DNA from: an uncultured Rhodospirillaceae bacterium
GTDB lineage: Bacteria > Pseudomonadota > Alphaproteobacteria > RF32 > CAG-239
Direction: 5' to 3'
Length of the DNA: 19,096 nt
Assembly (NCBI GenBank): GCA_900313355.1
Contig: OMQZ01000056.1
Coordinates: 1-19,096, forward strand
A program made the translations under genes and the position numbers. Under the pieces are notes generated by a model. The model saw only the letters and a program-made list of their open reading frames with translations, was not told the origin of the DNA and made no database searches. Shown here one piece after another: positions 1,409-7,616 of the stretch (its first letter is position 1; each line of letters begins with the position of its first letter).

Positions 1409-2722
1409 ATGTTTCAAATAAGCCCGCAAATGATTGCTTTATGCGTTTTGGTCGTTTCGTATATTATCTTGTTTACGGAAAAGCTTAATCGTGCCGTTAC
1501 GGTTTTGCTTGGAACTTCATTTTTGATTTTTTGCGGTGTGTTAACTCAAGAAACAGCTATTTCAAGCATTGATTTTAATACTTTAGCGCTTTTAATCGGC
1601 ATGATGGTGATTGTCGGGATTTCCGAAAAATCGGGTATGTTTCAATATTTAGCTATATTCAGCACCCAAATTGTTAAGGCGTCCCCCCGCGGTATTTTAC
1701 TCATGCTCGGCATTATTACTGCTGTTTTATCAGCTCTTTTGGATAATGTTACGACCGTTTTGCTCATTGTTCCGGTCACTTTTCAAATTACTCGAAATTT
1801 GAAACTGTCGCCCTACCCTTATTTGATTCTTGAAATTTTTTCCTCAAATATCGGCGGAACAGCAACTTTAATCGGTGATCCGCCAAATATTTTAATCGGT
1901 TCGGCACTTAACCTTTCTTTTATGGATTTTGTTGTTGAATTGTTGCCGATTGTTACTATTGAACTTTTTGTTTTGTTGTTGGTATTTGATCTTTTTTATG
2001 GGCGCAAATTGACTGCTGTTCAGGCAAGCAAAGACAGTTTGCTTAAAATTTCGCCAAAAGAGATGATTACTGATCGCGTGCTTCTTTTTAAGTCTTTATT
2101 TGTTTTTGGCGTGGTGTTGACGGGTTTTATTGTTGCCGGTTATTTACACCTTCAAAACGGAACAATTGCTCTTTTCGGCGCCGCTTTGATGCTTTGGTTA
2201 TACACCTTATCTGATGAACATATGAAACGAGATCAAAAAGTCGAAGACGCTTTTTCGCTTGTGGACTGGACAACGATTTTCTTCTTTGCAGGACTGTTTG
2301 CTATCGTTTTTGCACTTGAGACAACGGGTATTTTGGAGTTTTTAGGCGATAAACTTATTTATCTGACGGGAAACAGCATTCAAAAAGCGACTTATGCTGT
2401 TCTATGGATTTCGGCCATCGTTTCAACCTTTATTGATAACATACCTTTTGTGGCGACCATGATTCCAACGCTTAAATCCATCGAAGGGCAAATGGGCGGG
2501 CGTGAGGCTATGATGCCCGTCTGGTGGGCACTATCCTTAGGGGCTTGTTTGGGCGGAAACGGTTCTTTGATTGCCGCATCGGCCAATGTTATTGTTGCAG
2601 GGCTTGCTTCTAAAGAAAATAATCATATTTCCTTTGCGAAATTTTTAATTATAGGACTGCCCGTGATGATTATTTCTGTCGCACTTTCGATGCTCTATCT
2701 TTATGTTTTACACTTTTTATAA
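1409..2722 (+). CDS. ArsB/NhaD-superfamily ion transporter, first of a tandem pair
   Basis: 437 residues, almost all in hydrophobic segments (about 11-12 membrane helices), so an inner-membrane transporter. Two related signature segments mark the inverted-repeat fold of the ion transporter superfamily: SALLDNVTTVLLIVP (residues 109-123) and TFIDNIPFVATMIP (340-353), each with an Asp-Asn pair in a broken helix. Between them GGTATLIGDPPNILIGSA (149-166) is the signature shared by ArsB, YbiR and P-protein-type permeases (CitMHS/COG1055 group). Substrate is uncertain: Na+/H+ antiport, arsenite or an organic anion are all known in relatives, and no arsenic-resistance genes lie nearby. Start: ATG with AAAGGA 5 bases upstream. 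A close paralogue follows 14 bases downstream, so the two are probably cotranscribed. Residues around 142-168 share an 80-base identical DNA tract with that copy. Confidence 0.9.
   Translation: MFQISPQMIALCVLVVSYIILFTEKLNRAVTVLLGTSFLIFCGVLTQETAISSIDFNTLALLIGMMVIVGISEKSGMFQYLAIFSTQIVKASPRGILLMLGIITAVLSALLDNVTTVLLIVPVTFQITRNLKLSPYPYLILEIFSSNIGGTATLIGDPPNILIGSALNLSFMDFVVELLPIVTIELFVLLLVFDLFYGRKLTAVQASKDSLLKISPKEMITDRVLLFKSLFVFGVVLTGFIVAGYLHLQNGTIALFGAALMLWLYTLSDEHMKRDQKVEDAFSLVDWTTIFFFAGLFAIVFALETTGILEFLGDKLIYLTGNSIQKATYAVLWISAIVSTFIDNIPFVATMIPTLKSIEGQMGGREAMMPVWWALSLGACLGGNGSLIAASANVIVAGLASKENNHISFAKFLIIGLPVMIISVALSMLYLYVLHFL
1832..1911 (+). repeat. 80-base tract identical to 3172-3251
   Basis: This segment of the first transporter gene matches 3172-3251 base for base, including every third codon position. 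DNA on both sides is clearly diverged. It codes for the EIFSSNIGG...GDPPN...GSALN core. The sharp edges suggest a recent gene-conversion tract between the tandem paralogues. Confidence 0.9.
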
Positions 2723-2736
2723 ACGAGACGGACTAA

Positions 2737-4065
2737 ATGGATTATTTTAATTTTTTAACAAACCCACAATGGATTGCATCAAGTATTGTTGCTTTGTGTT
2801 ATCTTGTTTTGTTCAGCGAAAAACTCAACCGTGCTGTTACAACTCTTTTAGCCGCAACATTTATGATTCTTTGTGGAATTCTTACTCAAAGCGAGGCTTT
2901 TAGAGCTATCGATTTTAACACTATTTCTCTTTTAATCGGGATGATGGTTATTGTCAGTATTACGGAACGATCGGGATTATTCCAATTTGTGGCCATTTGG
3001 GGCGCACAAAAGGTTAAGGCTAATCCTATCGGGCTGATGATTGTGCTTGGTTCGGTAACTGCTGTATTTTCTGCCTTTTTAGACAACGTAACGACCGTTT
3101 TGCTCATTGTTCCCGTAACTTTTCAGATGACGCGCAAACTTCAGATTACACCTTATCCTTATTTGCTTTTGGAAATTTTTTCCTCAAATATCGGCGGAAC
3201 AGCAACTTTAATCGGTGATCCGCCAAATATTTTAATCGGTTCGGCACTTAATCTTTCTTTTACGGACTTTTTAATAACTTTAGCACCTGTCGTTATTTTA
3301 ACAACTTTTGTTCTTATTTTAGCGTTTTCATTTATTTGGAAAAATGCATTGCAAACGACAGACAGAAACAAAGCTGCTATTATGAGAATGAATGCGAAAG
3401 CCAATATTGTCGATAAAAATCTTTTATATAAATCCTTATTTGTTCTGTTTTTGGTTATTACGGGGTTTATTTTGGCTGAAGAAATACATGTTGCAAACGG
3501 CGTTATCGCTCTTTTCGGCGCGGCTTGTTTGCTTGCGCTTTATACATCTTCCGACAAAGTACACCATCGTGATGAAAAAACGGAAGAAATGTTTAATCTT
3601 GTTGATTGGACAACGATTTTCTTTTTTGCCGGACTTTTTATGGTTGTGTTCGGTTTGGAAAAAACGGGTGTGTTAGAGCTTTTAGGGCAGAAATTCGTTG
3701 TTTTGACACATGGCAGTTTACGACGTGCAACATTCATTATTTTAGGTGTTTCCGCATTCGTTTCCAGCGCAATTGATAATATTCCGTTTGTGGCAACAAT
3801 GATTCCGATGCTCAAATCGATGGAAGAAAGTTTAGGCGGACGCGAAGCTATGATGCCGGTTTGGTGGGCGTTGTCTTTAGGGGCTTGTTTTGGCGGAAAC
3901 GGCTCTCTTATCGGTGCGTCGGCAAACGTTATTATTGCCGGTTTGGCATCAAGAGAAGGTCATCCGATTAAATTTTTGGGATTTTTGCTCTGGTCTGTTC
4001 CCGTTATGATCTTATCTGTTTTAATTTCAGGGATTTATTTGTATCTGAAATATTTTGCGTTTTAG
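2737..4065 (+). CDS. ArsB/NhaD-superfamily ion transporter, second of a tandem pair
   Basis: 442 residues, colinear with the preceding gene from end to end and highly similar. It has the same two Asp-Asn broken-helix motifs (FLDNVTTVLLIVP and AIDNIPFVATMIP), the same GGTATLIGDPPNILIGSA signature, and the same AMMPVWWALSLGACFGGNGS block near the C-terminus. It is therefore an inner-membrane ion transporter produced by tandem duplication. The N-terminus differs slightly (MDYFNFLTNPQWIASS). The Shine-Dalgarno is weak (GAGACGG), so translation may depend partly on the upstream gene. Its stop overlaps the stop of the convergent nucleotidyltransferase gene by 4 bases, leaving no room for a terminator. 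The pair could work as a heterodimer or differ in substrate. Function beyond superfamily level is not readable. Confidence 0.9.
   Translation: MDYFNFLTNPQWIASSIVALCYLVLFSEKLNRAVTTLLAATFMILCGILTQSEAFRAIDFNTISLLIGMMVIVSITERSGLFQFVAIWGAQKVKANPIGLMIVLGSVTAVFSAFLDNVTTVLLIVPVTFQMTRKLQITPYPYLLLEIFSSNIGGTATLIGDPPNILIGSALNLSFTDFLITLAPVVILTTFVLILAFSFIWKNALQTTDRNKAAIMRMNAKANIVDKNLLYKSLFVLFLVITGFILAEEIHVANGVIALFGAACLLALYTSSDKVHHRDEKTEEMFNLVDWTTIFFFAGLFMVVFGLEKTGVLELLGQKFVVLTHGSLRRATFIILGVSAFVSSAIDNIPFVATMIPMLKSMEESLGGREAMMPVWWALSLGACFGGNGSLIGASANVIIAGLASREGHPIKFLGFLLWSVPVMILSVLISGIYLYLKYFAF
3172..3251 (+). repeat. 80-base tract identical to 1832-1911
   Basis: Second copy of the perfectly conserved segment inside the tandem transporter genes. 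For comparison, the identical protein block EAMMPVWWALSLGAC (near 2504 and 3844) differs between the copies at about six silent positions in 15 codons. Protein constraint alone therefore does not explain an 80-base perfect match. Confidence 0.9.
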
Positions 4066-4808
4066 TGTTCTAAAGATTTCAGCTGCAAGGCTCTGCTATA
4101 TGCACGAATGCTTTCCGCTCCGATCGGTTTTAAGAGCTGTTCATAATTTAAGAGTTTAAAGGTTAAATAGTCTTTCATCGTGGGATGATTTTTAATTGAA
4201 CGTAAAACCGTTCGAACAAAAAAGCTGTTTAGTTCAGCGCCTAATTCTGTTCCCCTGTATTTGAGTTTTATGCTTTCATATTCTTCCATAATTACTTTTC
4301 TTTTTTCTAAATAATATTCCTTCATTTCATTTTCGGAGATATTTATTTCTTTTGTCGGTTCAATTAACCATTTGTTGTCTTTAATCGAATACAGAGAAGC
4401 AAAATCGACCTGCTTGCTTGACATTTTGATATCTATGAGGCGTTTGTTTACATAGAAGCGATAGCCATCATTAAAAAAGCCGTTCAGTTGTGTGGCTAAA
4501 AATTTATCCATATGTTCGCTGTCTTTAGCGAGCCATTTGCAACCTTTGTTATGAACCTCAACGCGCATATCAATATCTGAACCGTCTTTATAAAAATAGC
4601 CGGAGCTTGAACCTGTTAATGTCACATCTGTAACTTCAAGGCCTTCAATCGGTGAAATGGTGCTTTCGATTAGCTTTTGAGCATATCTTAAGAGAAGTAG
4701 GCGCATATTTTCATGCATTTGATTGTTTTCATCAAAAAGCCATGGCGCAAGTGTTTCGCGCGGGGTGAGCAAACGCTTGATGTTTTCTTCTAAATTAAAC
4801 GTTTTCAT
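4062..4808 (-). CDS. Nucleotidyltransferase-fold protein with intact catalytic triad
   Basis: 248 residues. The segment TGSSSGYFYKDGSDIDMRV (65-83) has the DNA polymerase-beta-type nucleotidyltransferase signature: a Gly-Ser helix start (66-67) followed by D78-x-D80. A third carboxylate, D126 in LIDIKM, sits at the expected later strand, so an active two-metal site is predicted. The N-terminus (LAPWLFDENNQMHENMRLLLLR) and the helical C-terminal half are shared with the upstream gene. From memory of the family, the layout resembles nucleotidyltransferase-domain proteins of T4-like phages; this is inference. The substrate is unknown: nucleotide transfer to RNA, protein or a small molecule are all possible. 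The ATG has GGGGAG just upstream and overlaps the preceding gene's end by 14 bases, indicating translational coupling. Its stop overlaps the convergent transporter's stop. Confidence 0.8.
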   Translation of the reverse strand: MKTFNLEENIKRLLTPRETLAPWLFDENNQMHENMRLLLLRYAQKLIESTISPIEGLEVTDVTLTGSSSGYFYKDGSDIDMRVEVHNKGCKWLAKDSEHMDKFLATQLNGFFNDGYRFYVNKRLIDIKMSSKQVDFASLYSIKDNKWLIEPTKEINISENEMKEYYLEKRKVIMEEYESIKLKYRGTELGAELNSFFVRTVLRSIKNHPTMKDYLTFKLLNYEQLLKPIGAESIRAYSRALQLKSLEH

Positions 4809-5547
4809 CTTCTCCCCTTTCTATGTAATAACATTCTGACTTGATGATTTCGCGGTTAAAATGTTCACGAACCTTGAAAACATCTAAGGCTAGGAGCAAG
4901 TTATATTCTAATGAGTATTCGCCTTCGGGGGTATGTTCTTTTGCATACATTGCTTTTTGTTCTATATCTGCAAAATATTTTTTAATGGCGGCACAGCTTT
5001 CCGGCACGTATATACCCGCGGCATTTTTAGGAAGGTTATCGAGGTGATTGTGAAAATCATTGTTTAGTTTGGCATATTCTTCAAAAAGAAAATCCAAATC
5101 GTATTTAAAATTTTGAAAAACAGGTTCTTGATTCCATGTGTTTCTCATAACAGACCAATTTGCAAAGGTTATGTCTTTGGGTTTTAAGAGATGAAACAAC
5201 AGCGGATGATCATAAACCTTAAATACAAAACCACGCTTAGGCAAAGAATTGGATATTTTTTGAAGTGTTTCATCAGGAAGGCCGGTATCTATAACAAATG
5301 CGACGTTGATGATTGAGGTCGATGTATGAACTGCGCTGCAAACGGGACCGTAACAGACAATATCTTTTACTGATGTTTTCAGAAAAGACAGCAACTCTTC
5401 TCTGATTAAGGGAAAGGCTTTTCGAATGTGTGTGGCGACATCGGTGTGCATTTCGTTGCGATAATTAAAGATATCGCGAGGCAACATCTGATTGTTTTGA
5501 ACCAGATGAGCTATCATATCACGGGCTGTTTTTTCACTTAATTCCAT
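4795..5547 (-). CDS. Degenerate nucleotidyltransferase-like paralogue of the downstream gene
   Basis: 250 residues, first gene of a two-gene unit. It aligns along its length with the downstream protein: MLPRDIFNYRNEMHTD against LAPWLFDENNQMHEN, VKDIVCYGPVC against VTDVTLTGSSS, and FANWSVMRNTWNQEP against FASLYSIKDNKWLIEP. It therefore appears to share the nucleotidyltransferase fold. All three catalytic carboxylates are replaced: D78 by I79, D80 by N81, and D126 by about F118. The Gly-Ser motif is Gly-Pro (67-68). The frame is intact and long, so this looks like a maintained pseudoenzyme, perhaps a regulatory or structural partner, rather than a decayed gene. No signal or membrane segment is seen. 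The Shine-Dalgarno is a weak AAGAAG. A TTGAAA hexamer upstream could be a -35 but has no good -10. Family assignment rests on my alignment to its neighbour. Confidence 0.7.
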   Translation of the reverse strand: MELSEKTARDMIAHLVQNNQMLPRDIFNYRNEMHTDVATHIRKAFPLIREELLSFLKTSVKDIVCYGPVCSAVHTSTSIINVAFVIDTGLPDETLQKISNSLPKRGFVFKVYDHPLLFHLLKPKDITFANWSVMRNTWNQEPVFQNFKYDLDFLFEEYAKLNNDFHNHLDNLPKNAAGIYVPESCAAIKKYFADIEQKAMYAKEHTPEGEYSLEYNLLLALDVFKVREHFNREIIKSECYYIERGEDENV

Positions 5548-5613
5548 TTTTTCTTCTTTGCTGTTTTGTTTTTTATCCTGCCATATTTAAATGAAACTTT
5601 CAACCTTTTAATC

Positions 5614-5647
5614 AAAAATAAAAGACGAGATTTTTATCTCGTCTTTT
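5614..5647 (-). terminator. Rho-independent terminator of infA
   Basis: AAAGACGAGAT (5621-5631) pairs perfectly with ATCTCGTCTTT (5636-5646) across a 4-base loop. On the minus strand it is followed by TTTTATTTTT. The stem starts within a few bases of the infA stop codon. It also has a T run on the plus strand, so it is symmetrical. It separates infA from the nucleotidyltransferase-like pair. Confidence 0.85.
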
Positions 5648-5648
5648 T

Positions 5649-5870
5649 TTAATCTTTATGGCGGAACGTGATGCGCCCTTTTGTTAAATCATAGGGTGTC
5701 ATTTCGATATCAACTTTATCACCGACCATAACACGAATACGAAACTTTCGCATCTTTCCGGCCGTATGTGCTAAAATTTCAACCCCGTTTTCAAGACGGA
5801 CGCGAAACATTGCATTCGGCAATTTTTCGATGACTTCGCCTGTTAATTCTAATAGTTCTTCTTTACTCAT
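5649..5870 (-). CDS. infA: Translation initiation factor IF-1
   Basis: 73 residues, the usual IF-1 length. It is a single OB-fold S1-like domain with the conserved [27 protein letters not shown] and [11 protein letters not shown] blocks. IF-1 binds the ribosomal A site of the 30S subunit and works with IF-2, encoded elsewhere in this window, and with IF-3 during initiation-complex assembly. The ATG has AGAGG 7-8 bases upstream. The gene appears monocistronic: a promoter-like TTGCAA/TATAGA pair lies just upstream and a terminator just downstream. Read-through from the murJ-to-histidine-kinase operon is also possible, because no hairpin is visible between the kinase stop and infA. Confidence 0.97.
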
Positions 5871-5900
5871 AAAAGACCTCTGATTGTTTAATTTTTATAC

Positions 5901-5929
5901 TCTATAATCTTATTTTTTTTGTTTTGCAA
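5901..5929 (-). promoter_or_regulatory. Probable infA promoter
   Basis: On the minus strand TTGCAA (5929-5924) and TATAGA (5906-5901) are spaced by 17 bases and lie about 30-60 bases upstream of the infA ATG. The same two hexamers, spaced by 16, precede rimP. Each matches the sigma-70 consensus at four of six positions. Repetition before two translation-related units raises confidence. Confidence 0.5.
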
Positions 5930-5969
5930 CATTTTTTATTATTTTTCTGACAAGAAGCATGATTTTATT

Positions 5970-7616
5970 TTATGAGTTTGTTTCTGTTTTTTTGGATTTT
6001 GGAAACTTCAATTCAAAAATCGTTCCCTGTTTTAAAATGCTTGAAACAGAAATTGTGCCTTTGTACTTTTCGACCAATGATTTCACAATGGCTAATCCAA
6101 GGCCCGTCCCTTGCTGTTTTGCGCTTTGTCCGCCCGAATAAAACGGATCAAAGATATGCGGCAATTTTTCTTTTTCAATTCCTATACCCGTATCCTTAAC
6201 CTTAATGATAACATCATTTCTGTCTTTGTCTGTCGTTATCGTCAAAGAACCTCCCGAAGGCATTGCTTTGATTGCATTTTGCGCCAAATTTAAAATAATC
6301 ATTTTAAAATCGGCCTGATTTCCTAAAATATTGTTGTCTGCGTTGGAAAACTGCGAACTGATGACTATTCCGTTTCTTTTAGCCTCATAATCAAGCAGCG
6401 ACAAAACCTCACTGATACTTGTTCTGACATCAAAAACCTCCTGCGCTTCCGGATTGTTCTTTGCCAATCTTAAAAGTCTTTCCGGAATGCCGATTGTTGA
6501 TAAAATTTGGTCATATATCAATTTAATGTATTTTTCGCTCTCAATTTCAGATATTGAGGTATTTGTTTTTCGGTCCATCATATTTTCCAAAATCATGCGG
6601 ATGGAGCCTAAATTATTTTTCATTTCATGTGCAACAGATGTCGACAAGAAACCAAGAGAAGAAATTTTTTGTTGATGCGAAAAACGCACATCATCACTCA
6701 AGTCTCGGATTGATTCAATAATATAAAAATCATTTTTTTCTTTATCTACGACTCGCAAAGGAGCCGCATTGACCGACAAGGGACGCCCGTCAAAATTTTG
6801 GACCATATTGATGTTATGGGACTTGGAATTTTTAATTTCTTGCAGTGGACAAGTAAACATGCCATGAGGGCAAGGTTTTTCATGACCGTATGCCTGAAAA
6901 CATTTTTTGGTGTGTCCTTTCGGGTTGAACTGTTTTATATATGCTTTATTTGAGAGTAAGATATTATAATCACGGTCAATAACGCGAATGCCATCCGGTA
7001 TGGTATCAATTAAAAGTTGTAAAAACAATTCTGAGTTTTTAATCTTCGTGATGTTATTTTCGATGCTGTCAATCATGGTGTTAAAGGTGCTGGCAAGGGT
7101 ATCTATCTCGTCAAAAAATATTTGCTTTTTATCAACAGATATGCGGTGAGAAAAATTTCCCTCCGATACCAATTTCGTCGCATCCGATAACTTGTTAATC
7201 GGGCCGATAACCCATCGCTGCAATACAAATCCTAAGCAAAAAATTGAAAACAATGATAACAGCGAGCTTATGCCGATAATTTTCATACCTGCCAAAAATG
7301 CTTGGGATTGTTCATTGAAGTTTTTTTGTAATTCATCATTTATTTTTAATTCATATGTCAGCTCTTCCTGTTTATCGGAAAGATTTGTATTCAACTTTGG
7401 GGAAATCTTAACATGTACTTTATTTAATTCACGCTGCAAAGTAATATTTTCATGTAACAAGTTCATCACATATTGATTTCGTTTTGAAAGGGCTGTGTGG
7501 TCCTCAGAATATTTTTCCGCATAGATTAATGTGAACATTGTTAAAAACAAAGTCGCCATAAACACAAACAGCGCAAAGACCGTGTAAAAAATTTTTTTCT
7601 TCAAACTAAAATACAT
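5970..7616 (-). CDS. Membrane sensor histidine kinase with HAMP and Cys-containing PAS domains
   Basis: 548 residues. Membrane segments at about 10-33 and 110-133 flank an extracytoplasmic, largely helical sensor region. A HAMP domain follows (about 134-190), then a PAS domain (about 195-308), then the kinase core. H330 lies in the HisKA H-box SVAHEMKNNLGSIR. The ATP-binding domain has the N-box NLAQNAIKAM (443-452), G1 DTGIGI (475-480), F-box FDPFYSGG (489-496) and G2 GTGLGLA (503-509), so the enzyme looks active. The PAS domain carries C239, C249 and C256 with H245 and H251, an arrangement that could bind a metal or sense redox state. No response regulator is encoded nearby, so its partner is elsewhere. 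It is the last gene of the murJ operon, starting 2 bases after the previous stop; its Shine-Dalgarno (GGGGA) lies inside that gene's end. Signal unknown. Confidence 0.92.
   Translation of the reverse strand: MYFSLKKKIFYTVFALFVFMATLFLTMFTLIYAEKYSEDHTALSKRNQYVMNLLHENITLQRELNKVHVKISPKLNTNLSDKQEELTYELKINDELQKNFNEQSQAFLAGMKIIGISSLLSLFSIFCLGFVLQRWVIGPINKLSDATKLVSEGNFSHRISVDKKQIFFDEIDTLASTFNTMIDSIENNITKIKNSELFLQLLIDTIPDGIRVIDRDYNILLSNKAYIKQFNPKGHTKKCFQAYGHEKPCPHGMFTCPLQEIKNSKSHNINMVQNFDGRPLSVNAAPLRVVDKEKNDFYIIESIRDLSDDVRFSHQQKISSLGFLSTSVAHEMKNNLGSIRMILENMMDRKTNTSISEIESEKYIKLIYDQILSTIGIPERLLRLAKNNPEAQEVFDVRTSISEVLSLLDYEAKRNGIVISSQFSNADNNILGNQADFKMIILNLAQNAIKAMPSGGSLTITTDKDRNDVIIKVKDTGIGIEKEKLPHIFDPFYSGGQSAKQQGTGLGLAIVKSLVEKYKGTISVSSILKQGTIFELKFPKSKKTETNS

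Follow-up and report, generated by a model that had tools for sequence, protein, structure and literature searches.

A tandem pair of nucleotidyltransferase-fold genes, one with its catalytic triad lost, and its link to a cysteine-rich protein gene in relatives of an uncultured Rhodospirillaceae bacterium

Why would a bacterium keep, side by side and in overlapping reading frames, two homologous nucleotidyltransferase (NTase)-fold proteins of which one has lost its catalytic residues? The question is raised by a 19,096-nucleotide stretch of DNA (the window) from an uncultured Rhodospirillaceae bacterium (GenBank assembly GCA_900313355.1, contig OMQZ01000056.1, here C94), whose genome of 1.24 Mb is assembled in 219 contigs and is 78% complete. 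We call the two proteins A, with an intact site, and B, encoded immediately upstream of it and with the site replaced (Table 1). The answer that we favour, and hold to be rather probable, is that A is an enzyme and B a partner without catalytic function, the two belonging to a module that is linked to a surface protein. An enzyme with a dead partner fits the overlap of the two genes, their constant company in related genomes, the loss of the catalytic triad on one side only, and a natural fusion of the two. A two-part enzyme module of this kind behind a cysteine-rich protein gene appears to be undescribed in the literature searched: the sources covered on NTase pseudoenzyme pairs, tandem NTases, the phage family phrog_36119 and alphaproteobacterial cysteine-rich proteins, a coverage from which most subscription papers are absent, contained no description of the arrangement, in agreement with an earlier note on this DNA that knew of no such system.

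Compared directly, A and B share 22% identity over 144 residues (BLASTP E = 0.003), and profiles built from the relatives of A only and of B only match each other with 96% probability (E = 3e-9, 201 columns). This profile match, together with the tree described below, rules out a chance resemblance. Structure models of the two proteins (pLDDT 90.1 for A and 89.9 for B) have an identical order of helices and strands, and among the 50 matches listed for each in a structure search, 46 for A and 48 for B are NTase-fold proteins, as are all 50 of those that Foldseek listed for A. Models and profile searches thus agree on the NTase fold that the earlier note had proposed for both proteins, including B, which is homologous to A and keeps the fold in a model whose alignment included active-type rows. 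Among Pfam families, PF22600 (MTPAP-like_central) matches A at E 5.9e-5 (23.6 bits, under the curated cut-off of 27 bits) and does not match B, and PF22600.3 is listed for three relatives in a precomputed table. A search of NCBIfam returned no match, and no family is listed for the C-terminal helices of A.

Pol-beta-type NTases share a G-[GS] ... D-x-[DE] motif and a third acid on the palm fold. A carries the motif, and its model has the palm fold, which places it in this superfamily. Among 26 aligned relatives, G66, D78 and D80 of A are invariant and S67 and D126 are at least 90% conserved; in ten close copies of A all five residues are invariant. In B, by comparison, the three acids of the triad are replaced by I79, N81 and L117, and the glycine of the motif is followed by proline (G67-P68). 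The earlier note had identified the residues of A correctly, and those of B as far as Gly-Pro, Ile79 and Asn81 are concerned; its "about Phe118" opposite D126 has to be corrected, as the alignment places L117 there. The proposed combination of an active-looking A and a catalytically dead B is supported by the triad kept in the one and lost in the other, and A is probably active.

Despite its lost site, B is not a relic, since it evolves at a ratio of nonsynonymous to synonymous substitution rates (dN/dS) of about 0.06 and has 52 columns that are invariant across 11 B proteins, the ten others being 40-99% identical to that of the window. Purifying selection on B is as strong as on A: between the window and its orthologue in genome G004, dN/dS (NG86) is 0.057 for B and 0.069 for A, and between the window and G006, protein identity is 99% for B and 85% for A. 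The three catalytic columns vary among the B proteins. The first-position copy is an open frame in all 30 tandem arrays scanned (open at a contig end in G166, and the first half of a fusion in G002b), which bears out the description of the upstream gene as a full-length open frame.

The two genes are constant companions. A joint-profile search of the 152 genomes of the family gave matches in 27; full-length copies are present in 25 of these, and the remaining two, G001 and G160, hold fragments only. In all 25 genomes the full-length copies stand in tandem, two to eight in each, and across genera. In the order outside the family one genome, G033, has two copies, and eight of 385 genomes in a sample of the class gave a match, namely G000, G015, G201 (four tandem full-length copies) and five with weak partial matches. 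The 31 arrays discussed here come from the 25 family genomes (two each in G002, G004, G015 and G079), G033 and G201; in the incomplete genome of the window only one A/B pair was found. In G002 (contig C33) a protein of 492 residues is a natural fusion of B and A in operon order, and G019 and G165 each have a fusion of two A-side copies. The conserved adjacency in related genomes that the earlier note had proposed to look for is found in 25 of 25 genomes with full-length copies, and neither of the two outcomes that it had named as refuting is seen: the model of B has the NTase fold, and the genes are not found apart with a broken upstream copy. The hints that A and B may form a heterodimer are two: the natural fusion and the overlap of the genes.

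When did B lose its site? In a tree rooted with the phage kin, genes in first and in last position separate (SH-aLRT 87 and 97) into a B-side clade of first genes and an A-side clade of last genes, the exception being G033, in which both copies are B-side. G004 has B and A behind a cysteine-rich gene, and every array of the 25 family genomes holds both clades. We scored the triad in 77 domains from 30 arrays, counting it as kept where the glycine is present and all three acid positions hold D or E, a rule under which G098_6369 counts as kept with two Glu and no Ser. The triad is lost in 15 of the 34 B-side domains and in none of the 43 A-side domains, and never twice in one array, each of the 15 affected arrays having one loss. 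The copy that lost it is the first gene in twelve arrays (eight of the window's genus, G097, G098 and both of G079), the middle gene in G019 and G165, and the second gene in G033. Only intact copies are found in 16 of the 31 arrays, and the four copies of G201 keep the triad as judged by eye.

On the trees, at least three changes of triad state are needed. In a smaller, bootstrapped tree the B clade of the window's genus is supported at 100/100, and next to it stand the upstream copies of genus g6, in which the triad is intact. Because most B-side copies of genera g6, g10, g13 and g14 have an intact triad, the duplication is much older than the inactivation. The order of events read from these sequences is two old sister enzymes first and inactivation later, seen on the B side only and at least three times. 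The tandem duplication that had been proposed holds in that the two are tandem sister genes; it was not recent, and lies far behind the inactivation of B. Most studies of an enzyme paired with a pseudoenzyme concern a change that occurred once, long ago. Here, 31 natural arrays include pairs in which both sites are alive and pairs in which one is dead, as well as fused and expanded forms, and a triad loss that hit one side of the family only, at least three times, makes them well suited to testing why one of two partners goes dead.

A possible function is suggested by the gene in front of the pair. In 26 of the 31 arrays a cysteine-rich gene lies directly upstream of the first NTase gene, a figure made up of 24 arrays counted by script, G166 (a piece at a contig end) and G201. 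The script found a cysteine-rich neighbour before 24 of the 29 first NTase genes that have an assembled upstream neighbour, versus 4 of 253 other genes from the same stretches, a comparison that yields no true probability since the arrays are related to each other. Cysteine makes up 5-15% of the upstream proteins; those that include their start have a hydrophobic leader (seen without a signal-peptide program), and the proteins are probably secreted. Whole ones measure 228 to 1003 residues, and one that is cut measures 1686; contig ends truncate the linked genes of G007, G033, G004b, G057 and G111, and that of G166 is only a piece. In 22 of 24 cases fewer than 30 bases separate the cysteine-rich gene from the longest NTase frame, or the two overlap, the others being G019 (62 bases) and G057 (203 bases, with a short frame intervening). 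Among three linked proteins no Pfam toxin domain was found (none in L045, none in L166), and L048 has a TIL-like cysteine domain at the Pfam cut-off.

The window itself is one of the exceptions: it and two close kin have infA upstream instead. In front of the fused gene of G002:C33 stands one for a leader-bearing leucine-rich protein of the BspA type, and the last exception is the second, inverted array of G079. In G079 (L143, 5328-8309) two NTase pairs stand face to face, only one of them behind a cysteine-rich gene, and the first gene of both is without the triad. Since G003 has the order infA, cysteine-rich gene, B, A, and G007 has the downstream transporters of the window, the simplest reading is that the cysteine-rich gene was lost at this site in the window's species group, whose genomes carry such genes elsewhere. 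The link gives a functional lead in a group whose surface proteins we did not find described in the literature searched.

How might the pair work? A and B would be two subunits of one cytoplasmic module, co-produced from the overlapping genes, in which A, as a Pol-beta-type NTase, does the chemistry and B, its dead-site sister, is a structural and regulatory partner that holds the substrate or sets the activity of A. Most relatives have, immediately in front of the pair, the gene of a cysteine-rich surface protein that is probably secreted, and the module would belong with this protein; in the species group of the window, which has no such gene at this site, perhaps the pair acts without such a protein, or on one encoded elsewhere. 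The nucleotide may go to a protein or an RNA for making or controlling the cysteine-rich protein, which is a guess. We infer the heteromer, the activity of A, the regulatory role of B and the secretion of the cysteine-rich protein.

Two main rivals to this reading have to be weighed, an independent role of B and an array of antidote type. According to the first, B would be a nucleotide- or RNA-binding regulator in its own right, for instance of the expression of its own operon, and the overlap would only balance the amounts of the two proteins. NTase-fold pseudoenzymes can indeed serve as RNA-binding proteins: NF45-NF90 (ILF2-ILF3) of animals are paired NTase-fold pseudoenzymes, both dead, with double-stranded RNA-binding domains (PMC11952958), and in half of the arrays here the B-side copy is still intact. 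An independent regulator would hardly be expected always to have an A-side copy beside it, as it does in every array of the 25 family genomes, or to be fused to A, and we regard this explanation as unlikely, if still a serious one.

An active-looking A with a dead partner also differs from the systems it resembles. NF45-NF90 is alike in pairing two homologous NTase-fold proteins with catalytic residues lost, and unlike in that both partners are pseudoenzymes there, whereas A keeps its triad. MNT-HEPN and HI0073/HI0074 resemble the pair in having a small bacterial NTase beside a partner, and the structure matches include HI0073 and MNT. The partner in those systems is a HEPN or substrate-binding protein, whereas here it is a second NTase fold; no HEPN partner was found beside A, B having the NTase fold and the outer neighbours being IF-1 and a transporter. 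With poly(A)/poly(U) polymerases and CD-NTases (Tailor, mtPAP, FAM46, CdnE/CdnD) A shares the palm fold and the triad, and CdnE/CdnD are among its fold matches; it differs from them in its score under the Pfam cut-off, in C-terminal helices that are unmatched and in having no match in PADLOC. In PADLOC-DB, which lists CBASS CD-NTases and other defence systems, neither A nor B had a match at E up to 1, and no known defence system was recognised in this way.

One observation that bears on the antidote-type reading concerns the end of the cysteine-rich protein. In the window's genome, contig C163 encodes a cysteine-rich protein of 2902 residues that shares 78% identity over 1549 residues with the one on contig C7 of G004, and each of the two genes lies near a von Willebrand gene that is 99% identical between them. 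Near the end, identity drops to 57% over 244 residues, and the ends themselves do not align; B and A stand behind the G004 gene, and no pair stands behind that of C163. In addition, a C-terminal tail pattern occurs in 7 of 25 pair-linked and in 0 of 33 unlinked cysteine-rich proteins (Fisher p 0.0016), a contrast weaker than this value because the pattern was selected after the tails had been inspected, the two sets were filtered differently and the linked set contains near-duplicates. The unlinked set comprises the 34 proteins found by an N-terminal signature in 40 stretches, less one without a stop, with 14 other unlinked proteins not counted; the linked set was not filtered by the signature (the strict form is present in 14 of 24), excludes G166 and includes the near-duplicates G090/G110 and G094/G108. 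This evidence, thin and partly post hoc, suggests that the C-terminal part of the cysteine-rich protein and the pair go together. It is tempting to speculate, as a possibility that we put forward tentatively, on a portable module of NTases (an enzyme and its dead sister, or two to eight sisters) matched to the C-terminal part of a large secreted cysteine-rich protein and moving with that part as a cassette, which would modify, license or neutralise a variable surface protein by nucleotide transfer, in a manner so far undescribed, and in which the first subunit was repeatedly made a pseudoenzyme.

Or, perhaps the tandem NTases are immunity or antidote-like proteins against the cysteine-rich protein in a conflict system, the C-terminal part of the secreted protein acting on neighbours and the cytosolic array protecting the producer, with copies accumulating as in immunity-gene arrays. 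Such a system would suit the strong divergence within arrays of two to eight, the patchy occurrence (25 of 152 family genomes), the diverging ends of the C163 and G004 proteins with a pair only behind the latter, and the tail pattern. Yet mere binding proteins would not need the triad that all 43 A-side domains keep, the three linked proteins compared with Pfam have no toxin domain, and A and B have no PADLOC match; we think a conflict system of this kind quite unlikely.

The earlier note had also remarked on a resemblance to phage NTase proteins, and this is real. The phage family phrog_36119, of unassigned function, matches A at E 1e-10 (residues 9-179 of A, 14-181 of 247 in the profile) and gives no match to B alone at E up to 1; against the phage profile, the A-only profile reaches E 3e-19 and the B-only profile E 1.5e-7. 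The family, present in Caulobacter phage Cr30, Synechococcus phages, Maribacter Molly and Prevotella Lak phages, has the same NTase domain and shares the G-S, D-x-D, third acid and Y-S ... W ... P signature; it differs in that the third acid is Glu in the aligned phage rows and some members are fused to other domains. The phage collection yielded 45 records, with Synechococcus, Maribacter, Caulobacter, Prevotella (Lak), uncultured and marine phages among them. In three records that we opened, no second copy adjoins, and the neighbours, which are nucleotide-metabolism, lysis, tail-region or hypothetical genes, give no functional hint. On the viral contigs L058 (7986-12944), L056 (7959-10142) and L057 (6067-8649) the NTase domain heads proteins of 727-1652 residues, and the long protein of L058 also holds an amidoligase domain.

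One could take the pair for a phage-derived accessory, a captured phrog_36119 gene employed in conflict with phages, and the strength of these matches and the number of phage records would agree with that. The phage copies nevertheless form a clade of their own (100/100) and occupy a single place in each of the 45 records, the G+C content of A (0.363) and B (0.373) is like that of the window (0.381), PADLOC has no match, and inspection by eye, with no search aimed at phage genes, recognised none next to the arrays; a phage origin of this sort seems improbable to us. Least credible of all, and rejected here, is a decaying, functionless duplicate, which the lost catalytic residues of B might suggest and against which stand its dN/dS of about 0.06, its invariant columns, the open first copies and the confinement of triad losses to the B side.

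The positions of the pair and its neighbours are collected in Table 1; the coordinates, lengths and 14-base overlap that had been given for the two genes are exact.

Table 1. Features of the A/B locus and its flanks (positions within the window).
Feature	Position	Strand	Remarks
A, NTase-fold protein, 248 residues	4062..4808	-	G66-S67, D78-x-D80 and D126 intact; four C-terminal helices
B, NTase-fold protein, 250 residues	4795..5547	-	Catalytic residues replaced (G67-P68, I79, N81, L117)
Overlap of B 3' end and A 5' end, 14 bases	4795..4808	-	
Gap between infA and B	5548..5648	-	Relative G003 has the cysteine-rich gene at the corresponding place
IF-1 (infA), flank outside the module	5649..5870	-	PF01176, E 2.5e-24
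CitMHS/ArsB-type transporter, flank outside the module	2737..4065	+	Pfam; converges on A, 4-base overlap with the end of A

Immediately ahead of the ATG of A, and inside B, lies the purine-rich AAAGGGGAG. A hairpin of 12 pairs at 5620-5647, between infA and B and with a T-rich tail on both strands, is a possible two-way terminator. A scan for sigma-70 promoters over 3900-6100 found 0, versus 6.8 in shuffles, and the window contains no RNA family at the gathering score and no tRNA. Downstream of the pair, two similar CitMHS/ArsB-type transporter genes stand in tandem at 1409-4065, an arrangement common to G006 and G007.

Some observations concern the cysteine-rich proteins at large. G014 and G028 (L105, L174-L195) have 36 and 35 matches to the N-terminal cysteine domain and are without NTase arrays; their proteins share that domain and vary in their C-terminal parts, as in a large modular family. 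In L101 (386-1879), L053 (7429-10302) and L106 (5614-9287), cysteine-rich genes have in their vicinity genes for a protein kinase, a von Willebrand A (VWA) protein and a PP2C-like protein, joined in L101 and L106 by one for a thioredoxin-like protein; the VWA proteins of L053 and L101, the L053 kinase and both thioredoxins are backed by Pfam, and the remaining neighbours were named by eye. Proteins with a pilin-like start are encoded near cysteine-rich genes in L049 (12405-13055) and L108 (3829-4623), that of L108 having no match in Pfam. Finally, NTase arrays of two different families are found near tpiA and ppiD (names by eye) in L141 (G057) and L166 (G201), and in the window's genome (L102, G000:C48) a piece of a cysteine-rich gene adjoins pyrG-secG-tpiA. 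The tpiA/ppiD surroundings are possibly a hot spot for insertion.

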